Assembly: GCA_018065065.1 (NCBI GenBank)
Contig: JAGHTZ010000034.1
Location: forward strand, 1-40,269
Length of the DNA: 40,269 nucleotides
Direction of reading: 5' to 3'
From: Candidatus Equadaptatus faecalis
GTDB taxonomy: Bacteria; Synergistota; Synergistia; Synergistales; Synergistaceae
Made by a program: the position numbers and the translations under genes. Below the pieces are notes generated by a model, which did no database searches, had not been told where the DNA came from, and worked only from the letters and a program-made list of their open reading frames with translations. Below are positions 2,360 through 24,353 of this stretch, piece by piece. Numbering within the stretch: position 1 is the stretch's first letter; each line of letters begins with the position of its first letter.

Positions 2360-4327
2360 TCAACCGTTCAGCAGAATTTCGTCGAATTTCCGGCAGTATT
2401 CGATTATGTCCTCCGCGCCGTATTCCGCGCTGTCTTCCGTGAACTCCATAACAGCCTCTTTTTTCGCAAAGGTCTGCCACTTTATTTCGCCGACGTTTTT
2501 AACCTCGTGCTGATACAGCGACGGATTGCCTTTTTTCATAAAGTTGACGAGGCACGCCTGAAGCGTTTCTTCCAAATCGGAACGGCAGAGATAGCCGCAT
2601 TTTTCTGCATATTCGCTGTTGCCCAAAAGATGGAACAGGCACGCGTAGCTGCTTGCCCCGAATTTTTCAATCGGAGAACCTGCTTTCCAGCGGAAACAGC
2701 GCGCCGCGCCCCCTGCCTTGCTCTGCAGTCTGCACGTCAGAAGCAGTCCAGCCTCGCAGCCGAAACGCGAGAAAATACACTCCAGGGCGTCTTCTTCCGC
2801 CGCACCCTGTTCAAGCTGTTCTTCATACAGTTTTTTCAGCAGTCTGCCTCTTTTAGAATCATCTTCAATCGCCGCTTTCAGATAGAAAGTAATCATTTCC
2901 GCGCTGTCTGCCTCACCCATGGAGGAAACCCACGAGCCGAATTCATTCTCAGCCATTCCGGCAAGAATATTGATATTCTTTGCAGCCCCGTCCGCAATTT
3001 CGCGGTACGGGCTGGAAGGAACAATTCCGTCGCAGACAGGCATCGTTACATCGCTGCCGAGCGCTTTCTGAGCGTCAAGAATTTGTTCCGGCGCAAGCGC
3101 AAGCAGCTGTTCCATGTTTTCGGCTCCGGCAGCTTTTGCAAATTTTAAGCAGAGTTCGTTCTGCTGTTCAGGCGTGTAAAGAGACTCGAAATTTCCTGCA
3201 AGGACAAAAATTTTGTCAAAAAGTCCTTCAGCCTGCTTTATAACGCCCAAAAGCAGTGCTGAAACGCCTCCGGCATGCTCGCCTGCTACGGTTATATTGT
3301 CAGGATCCCCGCCGAATGCCGCTATATTCTCCTTAATCCATTTCAGAGCTTCAATCTGGTCAAGCAGCCCCAGGTTTTGACTGTCGGGATATTCCTCCGC
3401 TCCGGAAATTCCCGCAAAATTTGCGAAACCAAGCAGCCCGAGCCTGTAATTTAACGACACGAATAAAACGTCCTTGTGCCTGCGGACAAAATCCCTGCCG
3501 TGATACAACGGGACAGCCGAGCTTCCGCAGGCAAAATCCCCTCCGTGAATATACACGAGCACGGGGCATTTTTTTTCAGACTTGCCTGCGGCAGTCCAGA
3601 CGTTAAGCGTCAGGCAGTCCTCCGACTGCGGAAGATACCCTGCATAGTTGCGGTTGCTTTGCGGCTGAACGGCAGAAGATCCAAAATAATACGCTTCAAA
3701 AACCGCATCGGAACTTTCAAGCGGCTGAGGCGCTTTCCAGCGTTCAGCCCTTGCATACGGTATTCCGAGAAACGCGCGGACTTTCTTCCTCTCTTTTCCA
3801 ACAAAAACACCCGTCCGCGTTTTGACGGCGCAGCTTTCGTCATACTCTCCTGTAATTGCGCTGTTTTCGCCGCAGGTGTCTTTAATTGACGCTATTTCAT
3901 CTTCGTCAAGCGTCACACCCTCCGTACCGTCTCCGTATTCGGCACGCATTTTCTTCGTTTTGTACGTGCGGACTGCAAACGACACTGCAAGAACAATAAT
4001 CGGGAAACCTACAACAAATTCCAGCATCTCTGCAAGATTATGGTAAATGCTGTATCCCCACAGCTTCATGCACAGCGCGTATGAAATAAGAAAACAAACG
4101 ACAACCGCCGCAAACAGCAGTTTTTTCCTGCGCGGAACAACTTGGAAATATTTTCGTGCCACAAGCTTATCTGCCGCAACAAACAGAACATCGCCGGCAA
4201 TTATTGAAACAATTCCGGAGAAAATTGTTTTGGCGCCGTACGCGTCAGGCACGCAAAAACCGACGCCGTAGCCTATGGCACTGACAAAAGCAACTATAAT
4301 ATCGTCAAAACTGAACAGTTTCCTCAT
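2360..4327 (-). CDS. Membrane-anchored carboxylesterase-like protein lacking catalytic Ser and His
   Basis: A 655-residue protein with about four hydrophobic helices (roughly residues 8-27, 36-53, 70-90, 103-121) followed by a type-B carboxylesterase fold from about residue 160. Fold landmarks are present: FLGIPYA, SEDCLTLNVW, the oxyanion-hole HGG at 261-263, and FGGDPDNITVAGE. The nucleophile elbow reads GEHAGG instead of GESAGG, with His351 (codon CAT at 3275-3277) in place of Ser. The triad His, found in HAVEL of the paralogue at 15486, is aligned with Ser560 here. The acid residue may remain (Glu462 in AENEF). It is thus probably not a serine esterase and may bind ligands or proteins, as neuroligins do in eukaryotes. 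The gene lies six bases after the amidohydrolase gene, probably in one transcript. Confidence 0.85.
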   Translation of the reverse strand: MRKLFSFDDIIVAFVSAIGYGVGFCVPDAYGAKTIFSGIVSIIAGDVLFVAADKLVARKYFQVVPRRKKLLFAAVVVCFLISYALCMKLWGYSIYHNLAEMLEFVVGFPIIVLAVSFAVRTYKTKKMRAEYGDGTEGVTLDEDEIASIKDTCGENSAITGEYDESCAVKTRTGVFVGKERKKVRAFLGIPYARAERWKAPQPLESSDAVFEAYYFGSSAVQPQSNRNYAGYLPQSEDCLTLNVWTAAGKSEKKCPVLVYIHGGDFACGSSAVPLYHGRDFVRRHKDVLFVSLNYRLGLLGFANFAGISGAEEYPDSQNLGLLDQIEALKWIKENIAAFGGDPDNITVAGEHAGGVSALLLGVIKQAEGLFDKIFVLAGNFESLYTPEQQNELCLKFAKAAGAENMEQLLALAPEQILDAQKALGSDVTMPVCDGIVPSSPYREIADGAAKNINILAGMAENEFGSWVSSMGEADSAEMITFYLKAAIEDDSKRGRLLKKLYEEQLEQGAAEEDALECIFSRFGCEAGLLLTCRLQSKAGGAARCFRWKAGSPIEKFGASSYACLFHLLGNSEYAEKCGYLCRSDLEETLQACLVNFMKKGNPSLYQHEVKNVGEIKWQTFAKKEAVMEFTEDSAEYGAEDIIEYCRKFDEILLNG

Positions 4328-17328: not shown

Positions 17329-17347
17329 ATTCAGCCGGCCTGTTTGC

Positions 17348-18715
17348 TTACGGTTTTCCGAGTTTTCTGTAAACAGTAAAGTACATACAGAGAAAGCAGG
17401 ACAGTCCGCCGATTAAGTTTGAAATCGGCTCTGCCCAGAAAACGCCCATTATTCCAAGCGACGGTATTCTCGGCAGAAGAAGCGTGAGAGGCACAACCAC
17501 GATAATTTTTCTCAGTATGGAGAAAAATACCGCCTGTTTTGCTTTTCCAAGCGAGGTAAACGCTGACTGCCCCGCAAATTGCAGTGTCATGAAGATAAAA
17601 CCGAGAAAATAGATTCTCATCGGTAAAATACCTGCGGAAAGCATTTGCCTGTCGCTGCTGAAAATGCCGATATAAAATCCGGACAAAAGCAGCGTGCTTA
17701 TCCAGAAAATCCCTGTGTAACAGAGCGCCAGCAGCGTTTCAAAACGAATACCGTTTTTTACTCTGTCAAATTTCGCCGCGCCGTAATTGTAGCTCAGAAT
17801 AGGCTGCGCACCGTAGGTTATGCCGTGAATAGGCAGTATTATCAGTTCGCGCACGGAGTTGATAACGGTCATTATTCCTATGTAGAGGTCGCCGCCGAAC
17901 ACGGAGAGCGCAGCGTTGCACACAGCCTGAACAGAGCAGTTTGTAGCGCCGACTATAAAGCCCGGCAGTCCAAGCGCAAGTATATTTTTTACCTCTGCGT
18001 GCGCTATGCGCGTATTGCGCACCGAAATACGCAGTTCTATCTCTTTTTTGTGCAGAAAAGCAAGCACCCACACTGCGGCACAGAACTGACTGATGACCGT
18101 GGCAGCAGCCGCGCCTTTTACGCCGAGATGAAACACGAAAATAAACAGCGGGTCAAGCGCAAGATTGATAACTGCGCCCAAAATTGTCGTGAACATTCCG
18201 ACTTTCGGAAAGCCTTGAAGATTTATAAAGAAATTCATTCCGGTGCTTACCGCGAAAAATATTGTTCCCAGCATATAAATATCAAGATATTCCGCCGCAT
18301 GGCGGTACGTTACGCCGCTTGCGCCGAGCAGATAAAGCAGCGGCGTTTTTACCGCAAACACAAGTACGGTAAGTACAAGACTGACAATAATTTCAAGCGA
18401 AAACGCTGTTGAAAGAATATTCTGCGCCTTTTGTCTGTTTCCGCTGCCTCTTGCCATTGAGCAGAGAGGCGAAGCGCCCATCGAAATCCAGTTGACAAAG
18501 GCTGAAACGAGAGTAATTATCGGAAAACAGAGCCCAAGCCCCGAAAGGGCGTTGCCTGCGTCAAACGCGCCCATGTGACCGATATAAACTCTGTCAACGA
18601 TGTTGTAGAGCAGCTGAACAAGCTGTGCCAGAGTAAGCGGAACTGCCTGCGACAAAATAAGGCGGCTGATACTGCCGTTTCCGAAATCGCCCTTGTTCAG
18701 CTGTCCTGACGCCAT
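17348..18715 (-). CDS. MATE family multidrug/sodium efflux transporter
   Basis: A 455-residue integral membrane protein with about 12 helices in two similar halves. Family features are visible: LILSQAVPLTLAQLVQLLYNIVDRVYIG in the first helices, and ITYGAQPILSYNYGAAKF opening the second half. MATE proteins export cationic drugs or metabolites in exchange for Na+ or H+. I chose the ATG at 18715 (MASGQLNKGDF); the open frame to 18766 adds 17 residues that read into the foreign island junction. The native upstream region appears to have been cut off by the defence island, so the present promoter is unclear. Confidence 0.87.
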   Translation of the reverse strand: MASGQLNKGDFGNGSISRLILSQAVPLTLAQLVQLLYNIVDRVYIGHMGAFDAGNALSGLGLCFPIITLVSAFVNWISMGASPLCSMARGSGNRQKAQNILSTAFSLEIIVSLVLTVLVFAVKTPLLYLLGASGVTYRHAAEYLDIYMLGTIFFAVSTGMNFFINLQGFPKVGMFTTILGAVINLALDPLFIFVFHLGVKGAAAATVISQFCAAVWVLAFLHKKEIELRISVRNTRIAHAEVKNILALGLPGFIVGATNCSVQAVCNAALSVFGGDLYIGIMTVINSVRELIILPIHGITYGAQPILSYNYGAAKFDRVKNGIRFETLLALCYTGIFWISTLLLSGFYIGIFSSDRQMLSAGILPMRIYFLGFIFMTLQFAGQSAFTSLGKAKQAVFFSILRKIIVVVPLTLLLPRIPSLGIMGVFWAEPISNLIGGLSCFLCMYFTVYRKLGKP

Positions 18716-18772
18716 AAAATCACTTCCCCGCCGCGCTTCTGTAAAAAGAGCATCGGGATCATTCACACGGCA

Positions 18773-18880
18773 CTAAGCAAGCAAGTGAACAATTTCAGAA
18801 CTTGTATACCCATTTCCAGTATCACCAATGATGCGAGCTATCTGTTCAATTTGATACGGTGTTGGTGACGGTAGCATCAT
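18773..18880 (-). CDS. Truncated ORF overlapping the reverse transcriptase 3' end (defence-partner remnant)
   Basis: Two ATGs at 18875-18880 open a frame of 35 codons, overlapping the last 35 bases of the reverse transcriptase gene in another frame, and ending at TAG 18773-18775. It reads PYQIEQIARIIGDTGNGY, then TSSEIVHLLA. From memory this closely resembles the N-terminus of TIGR02391/abortive-infection-type proteins (pattern DT-NGLTGSEI-LL), which normally continue for 200 or more residues. Here the sequence changes to MATE upstream DNA right after the stop. I infer a downstream partner of the reverse transcriptase that lost its body at the island edge. Whether the short peptide is made is unknown. 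Confidence 0.6.
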   Translation of the reverse strand: MMLPSPTPYQIEQIARIIGDTGNGYTSSEIVHLLA

Positions 18881-20417
18881 TAACTATTTCTTTCCTGATA
18901 AAACTTACACCTGCTTGCTTCATTAATGTCCATTGACCATGTAATTTACCCTTGGATAAAGCTTCATAGCAAAACAACCAGTAACGATCCATATCTGTGT
19001 CTTCTAGCTTCACAGCTACTTTATTAAGTGGCTTTACCTGCGTTGCGTTTCTTTTCCAATGATTCTGCTTCATAAAGTAAATCCATGTCAAAATCAGGAG
19101 CAGACAATCTTTACTTTTGATTATATAGTCCTGTGCTTCGGTATAATTATTCTCAAACTCAGCAAGCACGAAACCGAATCGAATTGCGAAATAAATTGAA
19201 TAACACAGACTCTCATAATCGTTTTTATTGACTGAATCCATATATATTGTGTCTGAAAGGAGCTTGATATCGCTTGCATCAACTTCATATGGTATAAACA
19301 CATACTCTTCCATCAAGTGCAAAAGGTATGGATAGAGCGCAGCCATATGCATAAATCGCTTTGTCGCCAATTTCTTTCCGTTACTAGAGAGCTTTGAACC
19401 TTTCAGCTTTTTGATGGCATAATTTATTATTGCGAAGTTGCCTGTTTCAGTTGCTATCATTAATGCCGTGTCAATAAACGTATTAACCTGCGGATATTCA
19501 ACCATTCCTGAAACACCCACTTTGGGTAAATCACTCAGTTGATGTTTCCAGTTCTTTTCTATGCCAATAGGGAGTTCAACAATCTTTGTCTTTTTGTGAT
19601 TTAAAGGTAAATCGAATTCACGAAGAGCTTCTTCAAGATCTCGTAGGAATCGTTGTGCCTTATCGTGACTGTCAACATAGCAATCGTAGTCATCTATGTT
19701 CCTGACATAACGGTATCCTTTATCATAAAGTTTCTTATCTACGACGGTCAAAACAATCTCAGAAAGCAGATTTGAAGTATGCGGTCCGACAAGAAGCCCA
19801 TGCGTTTCACCGTTACGCATATCTGAACACATTTTATCAATATTATTATACCAAATATCATCACTACGTGTTTGCTTTGCTTTTTCCTTTCCAACCAAAG
19901 CCCACGGTATTGAATGCGTGTAAATACTAGGGAAGCATGTGGAAATATCCGCTTGAACAATATAGCGGCTCATTCTTTTACCTTGTATCAGTAAATCCAA
20001 CTCTGGATTACCGTCTACTCGCCAGTCTTTATAATTCATCTCAAAGATACGCTTTTCGTTGTACTTTTTGCGAACGTGAATCCGGCTGACACGGTAACTC
20101 TGTCCATTTGTCTGTAAATGGAAATGGGCGCGTATCTTATCCCAGTTATCTCTGACTTCAGCACACACTCTCTGATACTTAAAAGGATTCGGAATTCCCA
20201 TAAGCCGTGGTATACCAATATTTCGCATTACCCGAAAGGTTATATATTCATTCCAGCCAGCTTCAAACGGATTAGACACTGTCTTGCAGTAATTGAAGAA
20301 AGGAACGGCAGTAAATACAGGTGGAAGTTTTTCAGCGAAGAAGCCATATGCAAGGAGCCCTTCGTAAAGTTCATCAGAAGATATTTCGTCCATAAAATCT
20401 ATATACTTTTTATCCAC
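18846..20417 (-). CDS. Abi/UG-type reverse transcriptase, probable antiphage protein
   Basis: A 523-residue protein with a reverse-transcriptase palm. Motif A is QADISTCFPSIYTHSIPWAL with Asp157; the FPSIYTHS form is characteristic of abortive-infection (AbiA/AbiK/UG) enzymes. Next is HGLLVGPHTSNLLSEI where group II enzymes have the QG-P motif. Motif C reads RNIDDY with Asp242-Asp243, where YxDD is usual, so Tyr is replaced by Asn240 (AAC). The N-terminus has LPPVF and GIPNPFKYQRV; the C-terminal 200 residues look all-helical, as in Abi enzymes. There is no maturase or integrase part. GGAGG lies 11 bases before the GTG at 20417, which I chose over the TTG at 20444. It neighbours a restriction-modification pair. 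Confidence 0.85.
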   Translation of the reverse strand: MDKKYIDFMDEISSDELYEGLLAYGFFAEKLPPVFTAVPFFNYCKTVSNPFEAGWNEYITFRVMRNIGIPRLMGIPNPFKYQRVCAEVRDNWDKIRAHFHLQTNGQSYRVSRIHVRKKYNEKRIFEMNYKDWRVDGNPELDLLIQGKRMSRYIVQADISTCFPSIYTHSIPWALVGKEKAKQTRSDDIWYNNIDKMCSDMRNGETHGLLVGPHTSNLLSEIVLTVVDKKLYDKGYRYVRNIDDYDCYVDSHDKAQRFLRDLEEALREFDLPLNHKKTKIVELPIGIEKNWKHQLSDLPKVGVSGMVEYPQVNTFIDTALMIATETGNFAIINYAIKKLKGSKLSSNGKKLATKRFMHMAALYPYLLHLMEEYVFIPYEVDASDIKLLSDTIYMDSVNKNDYESLCYSIYFAIRFGFVLAEFENNYTEAQDYIIKSKDCLLLILTWIYFMKQNHWKRNATQVKPLNKVAVKLEDTDMDRYWLFCYEALSKGKLHGQWTLMKQAGVSFIRKEIVNDATVTNTVSN

Positions 20418-20480
20418 TGAGATACTTACCTCCGATTCTATCAAATAATGGACATAGCATTTTGCCCACGCTTTTTGTAA

Positions 20481-20564
20481 TTATGCAGACTGAGCCAATT
20501 CTGCTATTTTATCAGCAATTTCTTCAACAGTTTTTTGTCTGGTATTTCTATCAACTTTATCTGC
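20481..20564 (-). pseudogene. Short coding relic between methyltransferase and reverse transcriptase genes
   Basis: The minus-strand frame from 20564 to TAA 20481-20483 has 27 codons, including TVEEIADKIAELAQSA, with no start codon after the preceding TGA. A weak ATG-initiated frame (from 20584, MNRYLYEQ) could join it through a one-base shift. It looks like the end of a small helical protein. The 170-base spacer (20418-20587) also could hold a structured RNA for the reverse transcriptase; I see no clear hairpin. Confidence 0.35.
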
Positions 20565-20587
20565 TCATAAAGATATCTATTCATTGT

Positions 20588-22132
20588 CTATTTTATATTA
20601 TGTCCACTAGCATATAAGGGCAATTTTATTTGTCCAAACTCAGGAAGGCATTTGAAATCTATGAGCATATTTTCATTAAATCTCTTTACTAAACCTAATT
20701 GCTTTTCTGTTTCGATTAAATCATCTACTGAAATCACATCTAACACTTTGCGAAAATCTATTTGGTCAAGTACTCTTTTTGTAAAAGGACGTTTAGAATC
20801 AAGAAACGCTATACTACATATGTATTTTTGTACAATAGACGAATTTAATATTAACATCGTTGTATATGCGGTATCGTATGTTGGAAGACAGATAAAATAA
20901 CTGGTATCGTCTGTCATTATTGGACAACCACTTTTTGCACTCAAAAGAGAAAATAATGGCTTTTTATAAAATCCACTAACTCCAACTTTATATGTAGCAT
21001 ATGAATACTCGCCAACACCAAACATAGCAAAAGCAGGTGTATTTTTATAAATTGCACTTTTCCTTTTTTCAAAAAATGCTTTATGTGAAAATAAATAATT
21101 CCATGTTTTTGGGGCATCTCTTTTTATATGTGATGTATCTTCTCCAATTGACTTTTGCGTTACAATTACATATCTATCCGACCTATCAATAATTACTGAT
21201 TTAAACATACTACTCTTTACCAAAGGATAAACAAAACAACTTTCTATGTCAACTTCTTCAGATAGTCCATTTATCATAGATTTATTCTGTAAAGACAACT
21301 CCATTATTTTAGAACAATCATGTTTAACACCTTGACGCCACTCAAAACAAGATTTTCCTAAAAAATTGTTAATATGTGTTACTTGATTTTGTAGCCGCCC
21401 TGAGTTATATAAAATTTTGTTCGTTATTATCTTTGGCTCATAAAATGAATATACATTACAAAAAGCAGAAGTAACATTATTATTGCTTAATTCGATTACC
21501 AGTAAACACGCGCTCGCATTAATACCAAATACTTTATTTGCATTAAATTCTAAAATATCACAAGCACTAAATGAAATATAATTGCGATGTAACTCGGAAA
21601 AGATGTTCCTAGCTACAGATGTTTTACATAGCATTGCAATAGTCGCACGTTTTCCACGTAAAGCTGATATCAACTGAAGAATAATATACTCGCAAATATC
21701 AAAATTACTAGCACCTGTAAGGGCATCAATCCCTCTTAATCCTTTAAAATTTACCTTTTGAGGAAGATTAATTGAGTTGAACGTCGATAATGTACTATTG
21801 GTAACCCAAGGTGGATTGCCAATAACAAGAATATCACTATCGTTTTTTATTATGTTTGATAGGTCAATTGAAAAAATATCTGCATTAATAATCTGGACTC
21901 TATTATCACTAATTTCATCTATACATGATTTACAATATTTAGGATTTAACTCAATTCCAATAATTTTTCTTGCACCAAAAATTAAACTATTCTTTATAAA
22001 ACTGCCAGTTCCACAAGTTGGTTCAATTACAATAGACGGATTAAGTTTTCTTGTATCTTTTAGATATTTACAGACATCAAAAGCAAAAGAATCCGGTGTC
22101 TGATAATCGCCATACTCTCGTTTACCATTCAT
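20588..22132 (-). CDS. Type II restriction-modification system N6-adenine DNA methyltransferase
   Basis: A 514-residue adenine methyltransferase of the gamma type (motif I before motif IV, like M.TaqI). It begins GDYQTP, has the SAM-binding motif EPTCGTGSF at residues 37-45, and the catalytic motif NPPW at 106-109. The remaining 350 residues would form the target-recognition region. It would protect host DNA against the nuclease encoded just upstream. The ATG at 22132 follows GGAG with nine bases between; the ATG five codons upstream contains that site. It overlaps the nuclease gene by 11 bases. The gene is far more AT-rich than the core genome around it. Confidence 0.88.
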   Translation of the reverse strand: MNGKREYGDYQTPDSFAFDVCKYLKDTRKLNPSIVIEPTCGTGSFIKNSLIFGARKIIGIELNPKYCKSCIDEISDNRVQIINADIFSIDLSNIIKNDSDILVIGNPPWVTNSTLSTFNSINLPQKVNFKGLRGIDALTGASNFDICEYIILQLISALRGKRATIAMLCKTSVARNIFSELHRNYISFSACDILEFNANKVFGINASACLLVIELSNNNVTSAFCNVYSFYEPKIITNKILYNSGRLQNQVTHINNFLGKSCFEWRQGVKHDCSKIMELSLQNKSMINGLSEEVDIESCFVYPLVKSSMFKSVIIDRSDRYVIVTQKSIGEDTSHIKRDAPKTWNYLFSHKAFFEKRKSAIYKNTPAFAMFGVGEYSYATYKVGVSGFYKKPLFSLLSAKSGCPIMTDDTSYFICLPTYDTAYTTMLILNSSIVQKYICSIAFLDSKRPFTKRVLDQIDFRKVLDVISVDDLIETEKQLGLVKRFNENMLIDFKCLPEFGQIKLPLYASGHNIK

Positions 22133-22778
22133 AGTTAACAACTCCATCTATCTGATTATTCAGTTCAATGACTCTAGCATATTGTAATCTCCACTGCAAC
22201 GCATTGCTAATAGTTAGATAACCTTGTGTAGGAGGACTACACAATATTTCATCTGCTAATTCATTATAGATTATTTCATCTCCAGGAACATTTCTATCCT
22301 CTAAAAAACCTACAATATCCTCTTTACGTGCACCATCATGTACCATTTCTATGAGTCGCTTTGTTATAGTAAAATCAGCTGTTCTTTTAGCAGCAATAAA
22401 AGTACAGTGTGTAAAGTGCAAATAGCATATATCCGTTGAATCTTTCTTATCGTAAACAAACACAATAATATTATATCCCAACCCATATATTTTTTGGCGA
22501 GCATTCTTGAAAGGGCAACTTGATTGTGGTTGAGTGATAGATGTAACTTTTATATCTGTACAAATATTCTCTCCCGGCAAATCAATACCTTTGGCACTAC
22601 TTCCAATAGTTACTATGTAACGCTCCTTCAAATAGTTTTGAAATCTATGCTCCACATATGTTCCAACAGCTTTTCCATCAGTAACACCCAGTAATTCTGA
22701 ATGGTTTTCTTGAGACATTAGTTCACAAAAAACTTTCGCAGCTTCTATCAAATTGTTTATAGTAAGTATTGGTTTCAC
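22122..22778 (-). CDS. Probable PD-(D/E)XK type II restriction endonuclease
   Basis: A 218-residue protein encoded next to, and overlapping, a DNA methyltransferase. A PD-(D/E)XK-like core is visible: the helix GTYVEHRF with Glu43, GIDLP with Asp66, and TDIKVTS with Asp75-Ile-Lys77, followed by QPQSSCPFKNARQKIYGLGY and the strand NIIVFVYDK. I do not recognise the exact type II family or target sequence. Translation starts with GTG at 22778, with GAGGAT upstream. Nuclease-first order with a short overlap suggests a single transcript. The low GC content matches the methyltransferase, so both came together. Confidence 0.75.
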   Translation of the reverse strand: MKPILTINNLIEAAKVFCELMSQENHSELLGVTDGKAVGTYVEHRFQNYLKERYIVTIGSSAKGIDLPGENICTDIKVTSITQPQSSCPFKNARQKIYGLGYNIIVFVYDKKDSTDICYLHFTHCTFIAAKRTADFTITKRLIEMVHDGARKEDIVGFLEDRNVPGDEIIYNELADEILCSPPTQGYLTISNALQWRLQYARVIELNNQIDGVVNYEW

Positions 22779-23375
22779 AGAATTATCCTCATTTCTTTAA
22801 ATTAACCGTTATATAGAATCAGTTATAATATATTATTTAAATCTCAACCATCACTTAATACATATTTTAGTAAAACTTTCACTATTACAGTTTCATTTTT
22901 ACTAGGTTTATCAATCAACCAATCGCTTACTCCTACGCATTTAGCAAGTTCTCTTCATTAATTGTTTAACCAATTAAAATTTCTATCACCTATTACAAGT
23001 TAATACATCAGTATCATTCAAATTCACACAGATAGCGTAGTATGAATAAATGGAAAATATAACTATAAAACTACATCTATTACATATTTATTTTTCAACT
23101 TGTTTTTGACATTTTAAAACTAACGACACTTGACAATATCTTTAACAATCCCAATTTGAATATCTTCCTGGGATTTTTGGTTATACTTAAATTATCGACA
23201 GTACTTAATGTCACTTCTCGTATTGTGTTTTATTCGTTACACACCTATCATCTACACTTCGAGTTTTCTATTCTTCTTTCATGTTCAGCAAATATCTCTG
23301 TTTACATTCGACCTTACCAAGCGCAAGTGTACATTTCATTCTTAAAAATCATGTATATTAAACAACTGTACTATT
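22779..23375. other. AT-rich gene-poor stretch at the island edge
   Basis: About 600 bases with strongly reduced GC and no convincing gene. On the minus strand at 22844-22954 a 36-codon open stretch encodes RELAKCVGVSDWLIDKP and ends KVLLKYVLSDG. It resembles a helix-turn-helix fragment but has no start codon and is preceded by two stops. A stem of AATCCCA with TGGGATT around 23144-23178 followed by TTTTGG could be a terminator on the plus strand. The stretch marks the boundary between the restriction-modification genes and the core gene guaA. Confidence 0.5.
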
Positions 23376-24353
23376 CTATTCCCACTCTATTGTTCCGCTG
23401 GGTTTCGGCGTGAGGTCGAACAGCACACGGTTGACGCCTTTCACTTCGGAGGTAATTCTTTTCGTAATGTGCTGAAGCAGTTCGAAAGGAACGTTTTCAA
23501 CCGTGGCGGTAACGGCGTCTGTAGTGTTGACGGCACGGATTACAACCGGCCAGTCGTAGGTGCGGAGACCGTCTGTAATGCCTGTTGATTTAAAGTCGGG
23601 AACTATTGTGAAGTACTGCCACACCTTGCCTGCGAGGCCGTTTTTGGCAAATTCTTCGCGCAGGATTGCGTCTGATTCGCGGACGGCTTCAAGCCTGTCG
23701 CGCGTGATTGCGCCTACGCAACGGACACCGAGTCCGGGACCCGGGAACGGCTGGCGGTACACCATATTGTTAGGCAGACCAAGCTGTTTGCCGACGACGC
23801 GGACTTCGTCCTTGTAAAGGAATTTAACGGGCTCTACAAGCTCAAATTCAAAATCATCAGGCAGTCCGCCGACGTTGTGGTGCGATTTGACGGGGCCGCT
23901 TTCAAGTATGTCGGGATAAATTGTTCCCTGCGCAAGGAATGAAATACCTTCAAGCTTGCGTGCTTCTTCTTCAAATACACGGATAAATTCCGCGCCGATG
24001 ATTTTGCGTTTCTTTTCGGGCTCCGCAACGCCTTCGAGTTTGTCAAGGAACCTGTCTGCCGCGTCAACGTAAATAAGATTCGCGTCCATCTGATTTCTGA
24101 AAACGTCAACAACCTGCTCCGGCTCGCCTTTGCGGAGAAGTCCGTGATTGACGTGAACGCAGACAAGCTGTTTGCCTACCGCTTTAATCAGAAGCGCGGC
24201 AACTACCGATGAATCCACTCCTCCCGAAAGCGCGAGCAGAACCTTTTTGTCTCCTATCTGTCTGCGCGCCGCCTCAACCTGTTCTTCAATAAACGCCTGC
24301 GCAAGCTCCGGCGTTGTTATGCGCTGCATTGTTTCCGGTCTTCTGTTCTCCAT
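23376..24353 (-). CDS. guaA: GMP synthetase ATP-pyrophosphatase subunit, without glutaminase domain
   Basis: A 325-residue protein that matches the second half of GuaA. The PP-loop SGGVDSS is at residues 43-49, HVNHGLLRKGE and EKKRKIIGAEFIRVFEEEA follow, then RQPFPGPGLGVR and the dimerisation end KPSGTIEWE. It adenylates XMP and aminates it to GMP using ammonia. Usual bacterial GuaA is about 510 residues with an N-terminal class I glutaminase; that domain is absent. The start at 24353 is firm, with AAGGAGG seven bases upstream, so it is not simply a missed start. A separate glutaminase subunit, as in archaea, must be encoded elsewhere, or free ammonia is used. No terminator was seen before the AT-rich island. 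Confidence 0.9.
   Translation of the reverse strand: MENRRPETMQRITTPELAQAFIEEQVEAARRQIGDKKVLLALSGGVDSSVVAALLIKAVGKQLVCVHVNHGLLRKGEPEQVVDVFRNQMDANLIYVDAADRFLDKLEGVAEPEKKRKIIGAEFIRVFEEEARKLEGISFLAQGTIYPDILESGPVKSHHNVGGLPDDFEFELVEPVKFLYKDEVRVVGKQLGLPNNMVYRQPFPGPGLGVRCVGAITRDRLEAVRESDAILREEFAKNGLAGKVWQYFTIVPDFKSTGITDGLRTYDWPVVIRAVNTTDAVTATVENVPFELLQHITKRITSEVKGVNRVLFDLTPKPSGTIEWE

Follow-up and report, generated by a model that had tools for sequence, protein, structure and literature searches.

A subclade of DRT4-family reverse transcriptases (RTs) appears to have gained, on a single occasion, an overlapping downstream gene for a predicted HEPN protein of the Ymh (TIGR02391) family, which would be coupled to the RT and would supply an accessory second output; we give this reading a probability of roughly 0.55. 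In the window, i.e. the whole stretch of 40,269 nucleotides from Candidatus Equadaptatus faecalis that was analysed, the RT gene is intact and its partner survives as a 5' remnant ended by a nonsense mutation. DRT4 and the Ymh family are each known, and what seems to be new from the sequence comparisons is a DRT4 lineage with a coupled and repeatedly lost Ymh partner. No report of a DRT4 with a Ymh partner was found in the literature, of which the UG/Abi surveys and the work on the DRT4 mechanism were covered in part, and a prior mention is possible. In addition, the papers on the Ymh family that were consulted do not mention a Ymh-RT pairing. The features are collected in Table 1.

Table 1. 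Features of the RT/partner locus and its surroundings (positions refer to the window unless a locus is named)
Feature	Position	Strand	Remark
DRT4 (UG15) family reverse transcriptase	18846..20417	minus	523 aa, likely start GTG 20417
35-codon 5' remnant of TIGR02391/Ymh (predicted HEPN) partner gene	18773..18880	minus	TAG at 18773-18775
Overlap of RT 3' end and partner 5' end	18846..18880	minus	35 nt, partner in other frame
Shine-Dalgarno-like AGGAAAG within RT gene, upstream of partner ATG	18890..18896	minus	from sequence
Partner homology past the stop codon	18752..18772	minus	from search and alignment
MATE-family efflux transporter	17348..18715	minus	likely true start ATG 18715; absent from G001
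Type II DNA methyltransferase	20588..22147	minus	PADLOC MTase_II; upstream of RT
Type II restriction endonuclease	22122..22778	minus	NF052465, above cutoff; upstream of RT
guaA (GMP synthase ATP-PPase part)	23376..24353	minus	3' end borders the inserted segment
Segment absent from guaA/esterase junction of same-genus G001	about 17333..23373	unstranded	
guaA-3'-end or GAGTGGGAATAA sites	window 23376; L003 5872; L004 3374; L005 1616; L007 13132; L006 4072; L002 8555		

The longest RT ORF in the window lies on the minus strand, covers positions 18846-20444 and encodes 532 aa when counted from the TTG at 20444. The GTG at 20417 is preceded by GGAGG and agrees in sequence comparison with the RT start in relatives, including L002, and is likely the true start. 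The protein matches the PADLOC Drt4 model (PDLC02178) with 674.5 bits over model positions 2-504 of 506, and the NCBIfam Drt4 model NF041749 with 374.8 bits, which is under the equivalog cutoff of 450, so that by the latter model it is a divergent DRT4 member. The UG15 chain 21ou was among its best PDB matches in a phmmer search, and the motifs QAD(I/V)STCFP and NIDDY, aspartates included, are present in the window RT and the aligned RTs. With a dN/dS of 0.11-0.14 against its relatives, the window RT is, judged by its sequence, an intact DRT4-family enzyme. The AbiA model was absent among the 25 best PADLOC matches listed for it. A second RT in the same genome (L013, G000:C88 1442-1879) is a weak match with 31% identity. 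DRT4 has been described as a single-gene system that makes template-independent ssDNA, which becomes toxic once a phage protein protects it (PMC13213688). The window RT resembles this system in matching both the Drt4 model near full length and a solved UG15 chain, and untemplated ssDNA synthesis would by analogy be expected of it. However, the RT subclade described here has or had an overlapping Ymh gene, the start of which is overprinted by a C-terminal extension of the RTs.

Scanning a genome collection with the window RT yielded six loci with 79-85% best-segment identity (L002-L007). In half of them (L002, L003 and L005, from different Bacillota), the RT gene is followed by a full-length Ymh gene of 270-272 aa (N-terminus in L002: MTLPQLTPNQIEQIARI), and RT and partner overlap by exactly 35 nt, as in the window. 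The original prediction, made from the window alone, had claimed that the last 35 bases of the RT gene also encode the start of a second protein in another frame, and had proposed to look for a full-length gene overlapping close RT homologues; the overlap is indeed exactly 35 nt, with the RT ending at 18846, and such genes exist. Two opposite outcomes were also looked for, namely that no RT homologue is followed by such a gene and that the 35 residues match nothing, and neither occurred. A Shine-Dalgarno-like site lies inside the RT gene of each paired locus (AGGAAGG in L002 and L005, AGAAAGG in L003), and this internal site together with the overlap fits translational coupling. The RTs of the three paired hosts are 80-87% identical, with dS of about 0.6-0.8. 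The partner dN/dS of 0.08-0.11 in the intact loci indicates purifying selection, and the RT dN/dS is 0.07-0.15, alike in partnered and unpartnered loci.

The three intact partners match TIGR02391 with 112-122 bits (cutoff 39.45), which bears out the family named in the original prediction, PF09509 with 129-136 bits (cutoff 25), and PADLOC PD-Lambda-3_B with 220-231 bits; the RT beside the PD-Lambda-3_B-matching partner matches DRT models. They resemble other TIGR02391/PF09509 Ymh proteins, including PD-Lambda-3_B, in matching over the full length and in having RNxxAH, and differ from the known members, which occur solo, fused to paraMORC, AbiJ-NTD or AbiTii, or in PD-lambda-3. Anantharaman et al. 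2013 (PMC3710099) placed PF09509 (Ymh) among the HEPN RNase families, and the HEPN assignment of the partner rests on this classification and the PF09509 match. The catalytic-type motif RNxxAH is invariant across 12 aligned partner-family proteins, prophage copies included, and conforms to the HEPN motif R-X4-6-H. The partner has ~135 aa of mostly helical sequence at its N-terminus, followed by the predicted HEPN RNase domain at the C-terminus. Its predicted full structure is of moderate confidence (pLDDT 78, pTM 0.48); the C-terminal domain alone is predicted as mostly helical with pLDDT 81.5 and pTM 0.79. Fold searches of the predicted partner against the PDB and a viral library gave no significant match, and the best-TM PDB matches for the C-terminal domain included the HEPN toxins HepT (TM 0.48-0.50) and SO_3166 (TM about 0.5), all with E > 1. 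No relative of the partner was found by PDB sequence search, and no close viral copy by scans of viral contigs with the RT and partner alignments.

In the window, the partner ORF (18773-18880, minus strand) translates as MMLPSPTPYQIEQIARIIGDTGNGYTSSEIVHLLA followed by a stop. As an N-terminal part only, it cannot match the C-terminal PF09509/TIGR02391 model. The 35 residues alone match annotated plasmid TIGR02391 proteins (62% over 29 aa, E = 2e-3). Moreover, the full-length L002 partner matches positions 18728-18880 of the window genome with E = 1.2e-13 and one internal TAG, the similarity in frame reaching codon 51. The remnant is therefore a real homologue, and a chance overlap is ruled out. 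The TAG aligns with CAG (Gln36) in the three intact relatives and nucleotide similarity to the intact partners runs ~20 nt beyond it, to about 18752, so that the stop represents a nonsense mutation rather than a recombination junction. Thus, the partner is broken, as had been proposed, although its ORF does not stop exactly where the DNA changes: the junction between the remnant and the MATE upstream region lies between about 18752 and 18729, 20-45 nt past the stop and just before the MATE ribosome-binding site. Counted by partner codon position (1/2/3), the differences within the overlap number 4/2/13 when the intact loci are compared with one another and 8/9/8 between the window and these three loci (Fisher p about 0.03, with small numbers and non-independent pairs). 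This suggests that selection holds the partner frame in the intact loci and has relaxed in the window.

The MATE ORF as called begins with a GTG at 18766, inside the partner remnant; the ATG at 18715, preceded by GGGGAAG, is likely its true start from the sequence. In the same-genus genome G001, the esterase gene directly follows guaA, whereas in the window the esterase lies beyond MATE, and G001 has no match to the window MATE region. MATE therefore belongs to the extra segment, inside which the remnant/MATE junction lies. It follows that MATE is not a native island edge, and the placement of RT and remnant at such an edge in the original prediction has to be given up. GC content is 48% in MATE, 43% in the remnant, 38% in the RT gene, 30-34% in the restriction-modification genes and 52% in guaA. 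No tRNA genes were found within the window, which leaves no tRNA-linked integration. In L003, L004 and L005, too, guaA is found immediately upstream of the RT, and in L007 the sequence downstream of the RT includes a guaA 3' flank copy. The guaA 3' end or the similar motif GAGTGGGAATAA occurs near the DRT4 lineage in several phyla; in the loci that hold the motif away from guaA, it is expected 0.01-0.03 times per strand. The guaA 3' end is reported as an integration site of islands and ICEs, and the DRT4 lineage probably travels in guaA-targeting islands. Other genes found between guaA and the RT are one for Abi_alpha in L004 (4622-5377, other strand; PF14337, PADLOC PDC-S47) and one for a TIR-domain protein ahead of the RT-Ymh pair in L005 (2103-2681; PADLOC PDC-S66, 233 bits).

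The other three close homologues (L004, L006 and L007) have intact RTs, and partner homology ends within about 5-30 nt of the RT stop codon; they retain the overlap region despite partner loss, and the partner ATG is also gone in L004 and L006. Together with the window, four of the seven close RTs thus lack a working partner and are nevertheless intact, with purifying selection acting on them, which argues that the RT does not need the partner and that the partner is accessory. A further lineage from the window's phylum (L051 in G128) shows a decayed RT C-terminal part followed by a decayed partner. L006 has a same-strand 347-aa gene (2787-3830) with a partial weak YjcQ match after the RT, which is a possible replacement partner. 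The tree groups the seven close RTs together with 100/100 support, apart from the more distant solo DRT4s L066, L067 and L113, which are 45-49% identical. In genome G188, the paired DRT4 of L002 coexists with a solo one (L067) that is distantly related to it. A C-terminal tail of ~12-15 residues, which overprints the partner start, was found in the seven close RTs only, even where the partner is gone. The nearest solo DRT4s are without it; the solved DRT4 chains have more C-terminal residues beyond the aligned part, which narrows the comparison from all DRT4s to these nearest ones. We read the tail as a scar of a former pair. The RT/Ymh pairs all fall within one RT subclade and may stem from one joining event.

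According to the reading we prefer, the Ymh gene would have been gained once and would be read from inside the RT's own 3' end, with the overlap coupling translation so that RT and HEPN protein are produced jointly. Upon infection, the RT would produce ssDNA without a template, which is the activity known for DRT4. The HEPN protein would add an output of its own, most likely by cleaving RNA and thereby stalling the infected cell, or alternatively by dimerising and binding nucleic acid in the manner of AbiA's fused HEPN domain. As the RT persists without it, the partner would be accessory, and in the window only the RT arm could still work. Beyond the partner's existence, overlap, selection and loss, which are seen in the loci, we infer that RT and Ymh cooperate functionally.

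A serious competitor, though somewhat less probable than the accessory partner, is that recombination in a defence island brought together two self-sufficient defence genes, and that the accidental overlap couples expression of proteins that do not cooperate. DRT4 is described as a single-gene system (PMC13213688), an arrangement that is no sequence criterion; L002, L003 and L005 depart from it with an intact overlapping second gene, and in the window, L004, L006 and L007 the RT is the sole intact gene at the RT/partner position, which also speaks for a juxtaposition. The Ymh side points the same way. Partner homologues about 32-45% identical were found in 103 plasmid and 7 phage records, and those whose neighbourhoods were sampled are mostly solo, in defence-rich places or near prophage repressor genes, with neighbours such as Hachiman, Shedu, type I restriction and ABC-three-component systems; none of the sampled plasmid/phage homologues was coupled to an RT. 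In genomic loci, Ymh ORFs also overlap or abut hsdM (L056 and L058) or a DUF1016-like nuclease gene (L048). These are long Ymh proteins, lying between hsdM and hsdS in L056 (1492-2301) and L058 (1480-2556) and beside a DUF1016-like PDC-S02 gene in L048 (1489-1920), so Ymh proteins of one type occur coupled to several kinds of defence gene on their upstream side. For the gene ahead of the Ymh ORF in L048, the identity PD-lambda-3 A was rejected, since PADLOC calls it PDC-S02. What speaks against a mere juxtaposition is that the overlap, the ribosome-binding-like site and the gene order are kept in three diverged hosts, with the partner under purifying selection.

A tighter arrangement than an accessory partner is a two-component DRT4, in which the RT or its ssDNA senses a phage protein and the coupled Ymh HEPN RNase then cleaves RNA, a split-gene counterpart of the RT-HEPN fusion AbiA; from the sequences, we regard this as less likely than not. 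That an Abi RT can act jointly with a HEPN domain is known from AbiA, whose HEPN domain carries the motif but had no RNase activity in the in vitro assays used (PMC11077055). Both cases combine an untemplated-type Abi RT with a HEPN domain. However, in AbiA the domain belongs to another HEPN family, sits in the same polypeptide and is needed for polymerase activity, whereas here the HEPN-type domain is encoded by a separate, dispensable gene. DRT3 (two RT genes and an ncRNA) is likewise a multi-gene DRT system, but its second gene is another RT, and no Rfam family was found within the window at Rfam's thresholds. The two-gene system of RT plus effector put forward in the original prediction thus gains from the full-length partner in relatives, and is weakened because four of the seven RTs are intact without a partner, Ymh is mostly solo elsewhere and the pairs occur in one subclade; for the same reasons, an obligate RT-Ymh pair is unlikely.

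It is quite improbable that the locus behaves like a toxin-antitoxin pair, in which the RT or its DNA product would restrain a HEPN toxin that is freed by phage interference with the RT. Toxin-antitoxin loci commonly have an RNase-type gene that overlaps the gene ahead of it, and close relatives lose the downstream gene only, which would fit harm from a prior loss of the RT; however, Ymh homologues persist solo in many replicons that have no RT, which argues against a general need for it. Finally, the 35-residue ORF has an ATG, a Shine-Dalgarno-like site and 35 recognisable codons, but a working role for it in the window organism, as a short protein or a leader peptide, is very hard to reconcile with the homology past the TAG, the CAG in relatives, the partner-frame constraint in the overlap that is lost relative to the intact loci, and the lost start codon in the partnerless L004 and L006.

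How DNA made by DRT systems stops phages is still being worked out. If a DRT4 subclade did acquire a coupled, accessory Ymh gene, its paired and naturally unpaired members would offer a ready-made test of whether a protein effector reads or adds to the DNA signal. The case also illustrates how such a pair may form and decay, the overprinted RT tail outlasting the partner as a scar.
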